NCBI GenBank assembly: GCA_003216435.1
Contig: QCIW01000001.1
Span: forward strand, 1 to 64,000
Origin: Prochlorococcus sp. AG-402-N21
GTDB lineage: Bacteria; Cyanobacteriota; Cyanobacteriia; PCC-6307; Cyanobiaceae
Direction: 5' to 3'
DNA: 64,000 nt
The notes beneath the pieces are model-generated. The model worked only from the letters and a program-made list of their open reading frames with translations. It did not search any database and was not told where the DNA came from. Positions 43,743 to 64,000 of this stretch are shown here, one piece after another. A program made the translations under genes and the position numbers. Positions within the stretch are counted from its first letter, which is position 1; every line of letters begins with the position of its first letter.

Positions 43743-43803
43743 GTGTTGGCTTTAAGCCTACACACTCCTCACACACCCTTGCCCGACGTGTTCGGGCTTT
43801 TTG
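43743..43803 (+). ncRNA. yfr1: Cyanobacterial small RNA Yfr1
   Basis: Three parts match Yfr1. A 5' hairpin has arms GTGTTGGC (43743-43750) and GCCTACAC (43756-43763) with one T-T mismatch. The unpaired ultraconserved motif ACTCCTCACAC lies at 43764-43774. A terminator hairpin GCCCGA/TCGGGC follows, ending in a T-rich tract. The place between guaB and trxA is where Yfr1 lies in marine picocyanobacteria. Yfr1 is known to base-pair with outer-membrane protein mRNAs through the CU-rich motif. The exact 5' end is inferred. Confidence 0.93.
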
Positions 43804-61447: not shown

Positions 61448-61786
61448 ATGCCTCTTGTCAAAATCCAAACATCTTTATCCAAAGTAAATGATGATGAGAA
61501 TTTTTTAAAAGAAATTTCTACTGAGCTTTCAACTTTGACGGGCAAACCAGAAGCTTATGTAATGACACTTTTGCAAACAAATATCCCCATGACTTTCGCT
61601 GGATCTAATGATCCATGCTGTTTTGTAGAAATAAAATCAATAGGTTCACTAAACCCATCTTTAATGACAAAATGTTTTTGCAATCTAATCTCCAGCCACA
61701 CAAATATACCTAGTAACAGAATCTACATAGCTTTTGAAGATGTGAATGCTAGAGAATGGGGATTCAATGGCAATACATTTGGATGA
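61448..61786 (+). CDS. MIF-like tautomerase
   Basis: The 112-residue protein has the fold of macrophage migration inhibitory factor/phenylpyruvate tautomerase. Pro follows the initiator Met (MPLVKIQTS), as needed for catalysis. The blocks GKPEAYVMTLLQTNIPMTF, SLMTKCFCNLISSH and VNAREWGFNGNTFG are typical. MIF homologues are described from marine picocyanobacteria; the physiological substrate is unknown. Confidence 0.93.
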   Translation: MPLVKIQTSLSKVNDDENFLKEISTELSTLTGKPEAYVMTLLQTNIPMTFAGSNDPCCFVEIKSIGSLNPSLMTKCFCNLISSHTNIPSNRIYIAFEDVNAREWGFNGNTFG

Positions 61787-61923: not shown

Positions 61924-62415
61924 ATGGGCTATCTATTTCTTTTTTTACTGATTTCTATCGGAGTAGTATCAGCTCTCCTAATAATAAACAAAGGGGAGAC
62001 CGCGACTGAAATAAAAAGACTGCTCCTGGAAATCTACGAAAACCTAAAAGATCTCTTTCATAGTCTTAAAAATCTCTTTAACTATCTAAAAAAGCTTTTA
62101 AATGAAAATAAAAGTGAATCAAAGAAAGAAGCTAGTTCTAGTAACTCAGAAAAAAAGGACAAAAATCTTTCCTCTGAAAACCCTCTCGCATCATCTACCA
62201 CTAAAAATATTCAAGATCCCCTTAACCAAGCCCTAGAAAATCCCACTCAAGAAATAAACGCTGTTACTGAAAATATTGAACCACAAAATCTGACCTCTGA
62301 TCCCACTCAAGAAATAAACGCTGTTGAGGAAACTTTTCACCCCTCAGACCAAAATGAAAATAAAGAAGTTGTCGATCAACAAGAAAAAATTGATGATCTA
62401 AAACCTGATGAATAA
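61924..62415 (+). CDS. Membrane-anchored charged protein with internal repeat
   Basis: The 163-residue protein has an N-terminal membrane span (FLFLLISIGVVSALLII), a heptad-like helical segment to about residue 65 (LLLEIYENLKDLFHSLKNLF) and an acidic Gln/Asn/Glu-rich tail. The tail includes a 20-residue repeat (NPTQEINAV and DPTQEINAV units). Low-complexity surface proteins and envelope linkers look like this. No family is recognised. Confidence 0.72.
   Translation: MGYLFLFLLISIGVVSALLIINKGETATEIKRLLLEIYENLKDLFHSLKNLFNYLKKLLNENKSESKKEASSSNSEKKDKNLSSENPLASSTTKNIQDPLNQALENPTQEINAVTENIEPQNLTSDPTQEINAVEETFHPSDQNENKEVVDQQEKIDDLKPDE
62240..62325 (+). repeat. Two-copy 26-bp direct repeat inside a gene
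   Basis: The 26 bases at 62240-62265 and 62300-62325 are identical, exactly 60 bp apart, so the reading frame is kept. They encode PTQEINAV twice. Identity at the DNA level, including third codon positions, points to a recent duplication. Confidence 0.9.
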
Positions 62416-63099: not shown

Positions 63100-63210
63100 A
63101 TGAACTGGGAATATCTAATTGTTCCAACACTAGGGGTAGTGTTATGTCCATTTGCTCTAGCTTATTTCTGGGATCTTATAAGTAAATCAACCAGAAAAAG
63201 ATTTATCTGA
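63100..63210 (+). CDS. Possible small membrane protein (36 aa)
   Basis: An ATG at 63100 opens 36 codons: MNWEYLIVPTLGVVLCPFAL, then AYFWDLISKSTRKRFI. It is one hydrophobic segment with a basic C-terminus, the layout of small photosynthetic or regulatory membrane subunits. A GTAG-containing purine stretch precedes it. I cannot match it to a known subunit. Confidence 0.45.
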   Translation: MNWEYLIVPTLGVVLCPFALAYFWDLISKSTRKRFI

Positions 63211-63287: not shown

Positions 63288-63388
63288 TTATTCTGAGTAT
63301 GAATTCCCACATTTACATTTACCACCTTTCCATTTAGAGCATTTCTCTCTCTTACATTTTTCTTTCTAGGTTTATTCGTAATTTTCAA
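63288..63388 (-). pseudogene. Frameshifted Cys/Lys-rich mini-protein
   Basis: Two overlapping frames give halves of one plausible protein. The first, from a TTG at 63388, reads MKITNKPRKK. After one extra A in the following A-run the frame continues as KCKREKCSKWKGGKCKCGNS, ending at TAA 63288. Without the shift the second half has no start and is preceded by TAG. Four cysteines in CxxxxC and CxC spacing with many lysines resemble small metal-binding peptides. The remaining sequence from 63211 to 63604 has no other gene that I can support. Confidence 0.5.
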
Positions 63389-63493
63389 CAATTACAAGAT
63401 GAATTTTTTCCTATAATTATATCTTCAATTAGATTCTATTGTATTTAAACTAAATAGTTTATTTAAATCAATATTAAAGGCTTCCTAATCAAG

Positions 63494-63604: not shown

Positions 63605-63635
63605 CAAAAAAAAACCTCGTCCTAAGACGAGGTTT
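63605..63635 (-). terminator. Intrinsic terminator of pcb
   Basis: CCTCGTC (63615-63621) and GACGAGG (63626-63632) form a 7-bp GC-rich stem, extended by three A-T pairs. On the minus strand it is followed by nine T residues. It ends transcription of the pcb gene, 55 bp after its stop. Confidence 0.94.
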
Positions 63636-63689: not shown

Positions 63690-64000
63690 TTAAGCAGTAG
63701 TGGTACCTGTCACATTACCAAGAGCATTAGCAACTCGTCTGAAATCAAATCCCATTGCACGCAATGCATGCCAAATATGACCTTGGATAAAGAAAAATCC
63801 AAAATAATAATGGACGTTAGTTATTGCGGCCCTAGTTGAATGTCCCCAAAATGCTGTGCTATCAGAAAGATCACCTGTATCTATCCAATAAGGGGAAATT
63901 CCAAATTTAAAAGCAAGAGGTTCTCCATAGAAGGTCTCAGGATAAACAGTTGTATTAGTTGCACACCAGAAAGCAGCAACTATTGCCATCCAACCAATAC
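63690..64000 (-). CDS. Pcb chlorophyll a/b antenna protein (partial, C-terminal end)
   Basis: The visible 103 residues are the last part of a Pcb (CP43/IsiA-like) light-harvesting protein. The final two membrane helices carry chlorophyll-ligand histidines in TNVHYYFGFFFIQGHIWHAL. The segment before it, ETFYGEPLAFKFGISPYW, is characteristic of the Pcb lumenal loop. The frame is open to the right edge. Which of the several pcb paralogues it is cannot be read from this end. Confidence 0.94.
   Translation of the reverse strand, partial: IGWMAIVAAFWCATNTTVYPETFYGEPLAFKFGISPYWIDTGDLSDSTAFWGHSTRAAITNVHYYFGFFFIQGHIWHALRAMGFDFRRVANALGNVTGTTTA

Follow-up and report, generated by a model that had tools for sequence, protein, structure and literature searches.

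Background

Bfd, the bacterioferritin-associated ferredoxin, is a [2Fe-2S] protein that drives iron release from bacterioferritin (PMC12363616). Cyanobacteria have metallothioneins (BmtA/SmtA), which are activated by Zur in Synechococcus WH8102 (PMC9337993), and ferritins of the SynFtn type (PMC8743623). Prochlorococcus and marine Synechococcus also share PSHCP, a hyper-conserved small protein that is 100% conserved and linked to the ribosome (PMC4215834).

The DNA analysed here (the window, 64,000 nucleotides from a Prochlorococcus draft genome) carries a fragment that is probably a fairly recent pseudogenised copy of a gene for a small four-cysteine protein, truncated at its 5' end and untranslatable; the parent is predicted to bind metal and to be linked to ferritin. 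Like Bfd, this parent is a small protein with four cysteines, its gene usually lies beside a ferritin-type gene and it is possibly under iron-linked control. The cysteines of Bfd are spaced C-x-C-x(31-34)-C-x2-C, whereas the mini-protein has C-x4-C-x7-C-x-C within about 20 residues and not a C-x-C ... C-x2-C arrangement, and the ferritin beside it is of the heme-free type and cannot clearly be called a Bfr. The Pfam/NCBIfam Bfd profile had no match at E <= 1 among 13 intact members. Because two defining features of Bfd are absent, the parent would at most work like Bfd.

With BmtA/SmtA the mini-protein shares its small size and richness in cysteines, its host organisms and a Fur-family-type box upstream, but BmtA/SmtA have about nine or more cysteines, whereas the mini-protein is Lys-rich with four cysteines rather than many, and none of its intact members has a Pfam metallothionein match. 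SynFtn is likely the kind of ferritin (PF00210) encoded next to the mini-protein, and is a counterpart of this neighbour, not of the mini-protein itself. PSHCP is likewise a clade-restricted small protein with no exact function assigned; the four-cysteine family differs from it in varying outside the cysteine core.

A fragment with four cysteine codons behind a stop

On the minus strand of the window, a TAG stop (63368-63366) is immediately followed, in the same frame, by KEKCKREKCSKWKGGKCKCGNSYSE, closed by a TAA at 63290-63288 (tail with stop: 63288..63365). Another in-frame stop, TAA, lies two codons upstream of the TAG, and past the TAG the frame of the tail contains no ATG, GTG or TTG. 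The first cysteine codon begins at 63356, directly behind a run of five A (63361-63357). One frame over, TTG 63388, with a further TTG at 63391, opens a piece on the same strand (63369..63391) that reads M(L)KITNKPRKKNVRERN... or MKITNKPRKKNVRERN.... The initial annotation had given the letters and coordinates of this arrangement (TTG, TAG, tail, TAA) correctly, except for the end of the tail, which is ...CGNSYSE and not ...CGNS.

When the window's own genome was searched with a profile of intact relatives, the tail matched with E = 2.6e-10 (41 bits), and a search of 60 genomes detected DNA matching its Cys part, 78-90% identical, in 13 relatives from its bacterial family. The Cys part of the fragment is not a product of chance: the A-rich region speaks for random cysteine and lysine codons in intergenic DNA, but the profile score and the DNA matches in relatives refute such an origin, which is practically impossible.

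A four-cysteine family of picocyanobacteria

In 13 of 13 relatives an intact short ORF ends with the Cys part, which forms its C-terminus; one example is MSTYIGKSSEEYSKRRVPLATKKKNCKKKKCSKWKGGRCVCGKE. The initial annotation was right in that a real small Cys/Lys gene stands behind the fragment, and this gene belongs to a family. Its refuting condition, absence of intact homologues from related genomes, does not apply: profile A1, built from these 13 relatives, matches 284 of the 400 genomes searched in their bacterial family, including 206 of the 251 good-quality ones. A class-wide search of 291 genomes gave 31 matches, all inside the same bacterial family, and none among the other cyanobacteria sampled there. 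Intact members come from Prochlorococcus, marine Synechococcus and Cyanobium, and the named records bear the labels Prochlorococcus, Synechococcus, Cyanobium and related ones. The parent family is real but uncharacterised and is carried by most of the picocyanobacteria sampled; we found no paper describing the gene in the literature outside subscription journals. A phage origin was rejected, as neither the phage records nor 2.9 million viral contigs contain a relative; PHROGs gave only two single-member matches (E 0.07-0.10).

Intact members are 27-47 amino acids long and have four to six cysteines. They share the motif K-x-C-x4-C-S-x-W-K-G-G-x-C-x-C, with the spacing C-x4-C-x7-C-x-C in all members, and occur in two forms: a longer form A, and a short form B of 27-28 amino acids with few residues before the first cysteine. 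Within the 17-codon core of form A, pN is 0.15 and pS 0.92, a ratio of 0.16 that also reflects free positions and in which the invariance of the cysteines and K/R-G-G is partly built in, as members were chosen by a pattern requiring these residues. A ratio of about 0.16 in the core likewise speaks for the initial annotation, which had named a lack of purifying selection on the cysteine codons as a refuting condition. The 13 intact members have no Pfam/NCBIfam match at E <= 1, searches of solved structures gave chance matches only (E about 2), and AlphaFold2 on 19 relatives returned a model too weak to help (mean pLDDT 62, pTM 0.28).

Intact copies of form A usually adjoin ferritin and a regulator

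The form-A gene of Prochlorococcus is divergent from a ferritin gene and convergent with a gene for an ABC ATPase, and close to it are also a 90-aa ORF of no assigned family and a Crp-family regulator. At L059, form A occupies a 125-bp divergent gap beside a ferritin that matches Pfam PF00210 with 9.9e-28. Flanks of 1.4 kb or more on either side are available for 43 form-A loci, of which 35 have a ferritin neighbour and 41 a Crp-type gene; when all 56 are counted, 18 are without ferritin, many of them with short flanks. The ferritin link survives rearrangement, because the ferritin that form A faces at L061 and L063 is another one (form Ftn2, with 81-82% identity to the reference). At other form-A loci of Synechococcus and Cyanobium the Crp-type gene alone was seen. 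Form-B loci are never with ferritin, and beyond the g79 genus they have no shared context.

In Prochlorococcus, a 15-bp near-palindrome, TGAGAATnAATCTCA or TGATAATGAATATCA, lies 24-38 nt upstream of the form-A start. Its 7-1-7 layout is that of Fur-family sites, and it is present with at most one mismatch at this fixed place in 22 of 27 low-GC form-A loci and in 1 of 11 form-B loci. It is not a proven Fur site, because the flavodoxin (isiB) promoters of nine relatives mostly lack it. Two loci (L094 and L095) have lost the mini-gene and kept ferritin and palindrome; this retention suggests that the palindrome serves the ferritin gene too. Genome G011 has a second Fur-shaped palindrome, TGAGAATAAATATCA (L123:1501-1515), 25 nt before the Crp-family regulator.

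Possible role of the parent protein

From its four cysteines within 16 residues, next to the invariant W-K-G-G and a part rich in Lys, the parent can be pictured as a basic peptide with a single small metal or Fe-S site, at which the cysteines (C-x4-C-x7-C-x-C) could bind Fe, Zn or an Fe-S cluster. The protein may be made when iron status changes and may act on ferritin, moving iron or electrons in or out. Traffic of iron or electrons with ferritin is the most likely role, given the ferritin neighbour and the Fur-shaped box; even so, we propose any ferritin-linked role only tentatively, the odds being somewhat against it. Doubtful, and clearly less probable, is the narrower joint proposal of a Bfd-like role, in which a minimal four-cysteine metal or Fe-S peptide would release or load ferritin iron in picocyanobacteria and would share a Fur-family-type box with the divergent ferritin gene. 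We predict metal binding, regulation and a partnership with ferritin from sequence and gene neighbourhood.

The copy in the window is an ordinary relic and what moderate interest there is lies in the family behind it. Its intact relatives are a lead on iron handling in ocean cyanobacteria, as the family adjoins ferritin and a regulator in organisms whose growth is often limited by iron. If the protein were a ferritin partner, the recovery of iron from ferritin could be tested directly via one tiny gene.

The window copy is probably a broken gene, with no established frameshift

The tail retains all four cysteines, the W and K-G-G; the invariant K two residues ahead of the first cysteine is an E. 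The core C-x4-C-S-x-W-K-G-G-x-C-x-C does not stand in an open frame with a start, as the copy is startless with a stop directly 5' of it. Absent are also the M-x3-IG N-terminus of the family and the upstream 15-bp palindrome, for which the best score is 2 bits, compared with 15.5-24.5 for real sites. Because it is startless and has neither the native N-terminus nor the palindrome, the copy does not have the function of its parent.

In a comparison of the core with that of L004, differences fall on 5.5 of the 8.5 synonymous sites but on only 3.5 of the 42.5 nonsynonymous ones, and this synonymous excess indicates that the core evolved as a coding sequence during most of its past. Under neutral drift, all key residues of the 17-codon core would survive with a probability of 0.32 if divergence is 5% and of 0.095 if it is 10%. 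The retention of every key residue thus weighs against a pseudogene, so that either its decay is recent or the copy kept a use until a short time ago.

The initial annotation had proposed that a single base lost from the A-run (63357..63361, minus strand) splits one gene into two pieces, the first being MKITNKPRKK. This upstream piece, MLKITNKP.. when read from the first TTG, has no detectable homology to intact family members, and its unjoined frame scores 0.6-0.8 bits with the profiles. That the two pieces are one gene is not confirmed: the similarity to intact relatives 5' of the A-run stays at the background level of other offsets, and offset 0 (no frameshift) and offset +1 (one base lost) both reach 0.50 over 15 nt and 0.37 over 40 nt. 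The lost-A reading and a same-frame read-through score 39.0 and 42.6 bits with profile A1, and 38.3 and 37.7 bits with profile A3. As the offsets tie and the profile scores are about equal, a one-base frameshift is not demonstrated as the cause of the split: a stop in frame accounts for the break just as well, and a lost base is neither required nor excluded.

Programmed slippage, ribosomal or transcriptional, at the A-run was another option of the initial annotation for making a metal-binding peptide. A short A-run does lie at the junction and the core behind it is conserved, but the run has only five A, the RNA downstream of it folds worse than shuffled sequences (z = +1.4) and the upstream half is without homology. 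Moreover, every intact relative has the whole protein in a single frame and needs no shift, so that a slippery site with its shift is not conserved in them. Slippage was rejected on these grounds as extremely improbable.

The third option, besides the broken gene, was a base-call error, that is, a gene intact in the cell and broken by sequencing or assembly of a draft in 47 contigs that is 76% complete. Several observations speak for it: the core has all key residues and a strong synonymous bias, and one added base would give RKKKC, fitting the conserved K-K-x-C. However, the joined protein would still start with TTG, lack the N-terminus of the family and the palindrome and lie away from ferritin, and a single-base error is not needed, given that an in-frame stop fits equally. 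We therefore consider this explanation unlikely and regard the broken gene as the best of the three options.

Loss in the genus and position of the window copy

The ferritin locus of the window's genome (contig C2) has a 137-nt gap with no mini-gene and has kept the palindrome as TGAGATTGAATCTCA; the same is true of the ferritin locus of G002, a complete genome of this genus. An intact short paralogue, MPDKKKKKKCKKKKCSAWKGGKCICHG, is present on contig C9 of the window's genome, and this form is found in several other genera as well. In G002, form B has decayed to MSDKKKRKNCTKKKYPAWKGGK*ICHGQ, in which Tyr replaces one Cys and a stop has arisen at another codon. As this decay is found in a complete genome, the loss in the genus is real and not just an error of a draft genome. 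A low-light genus in which the gene is lost or decayed would serve as a natural knockout.

The ferritin/Crp cluster of the window's genome also contains a pcb-type gene (L094:2011-3069, plus strand) that is 57% identical to the pcb gene in the window; this suggests a gene cluster for iron stress that combines light harvesting, a regulator and ferritin.

The fragment lies behind the 3' end of a chlorophyll-binding (pcb/PsbC-like) gene (63690..64000, minus strand), named from its sequence and the first of three tandem copies running past the window. Between the two is a terminator-like hairpin with a T-run (63612..63635, minus strand; 1 found, 0.1 expected). An ORF for a conserved 36-aa hydrophobic microprotein, MNWEYLIVPTLGVVLCPFALAYFWDLISKSTRKRFI (63100..63210, plus strand), serves as synteny anchor; it has no Pfam family, is present in 13 of 40 genomes searched and lies behind pcb in G001 and G002, both of the same genus, as well. 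In neither of these two genomes does the syntenic interval behind pcb contain a copy of the four-cysteine gene. The intergenic DNA is too diverged from that of G002 to place the borders of an insertion.

The empty syntenic site also bears on whether the window piece could be a separate functional paralogue, a short peptide translated from an unconventional start past the TAG. Form-B relatives of 27-28 amino acids, with their few residues before the first cysteine, provide a precedent, but no ATG, GTG or TTG is available in frame and G001 and G002 have no copy at this site, which makes a functional paralogue quite improbable. The best reading of the window copy is a stray, truncated gene whose death is recent.

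Some further features were seen in and around this interval. G001 has a different ORF of 66 amino acids (MSNSLLGENDLKNILF...) between pcb and the microprotein (L100:3298-3498, plus strand), and G002 (L147) has a similar-looking sequence; this piece was not seen in the window's genome. The window encodes a MIF/tautomerase-like protein (61448-61786, plus strand; Pfam MIF, E 1.7e-22), and G001 and G002 have homologues of it at the corresponding syntenic position. The G002 gene syntenic with window 61924-62415 (L147:398-763, minus strand) has a tandem repeat, in which minus-strand SSSTCTGVASVSL is repeated; the window gene is without this repeat in that form. Further away, at 43743-43800 on the plus strand, the window contains Yfr1, a known cyanobacterial small RNA (Rfam RF01116, 57.9 bits).
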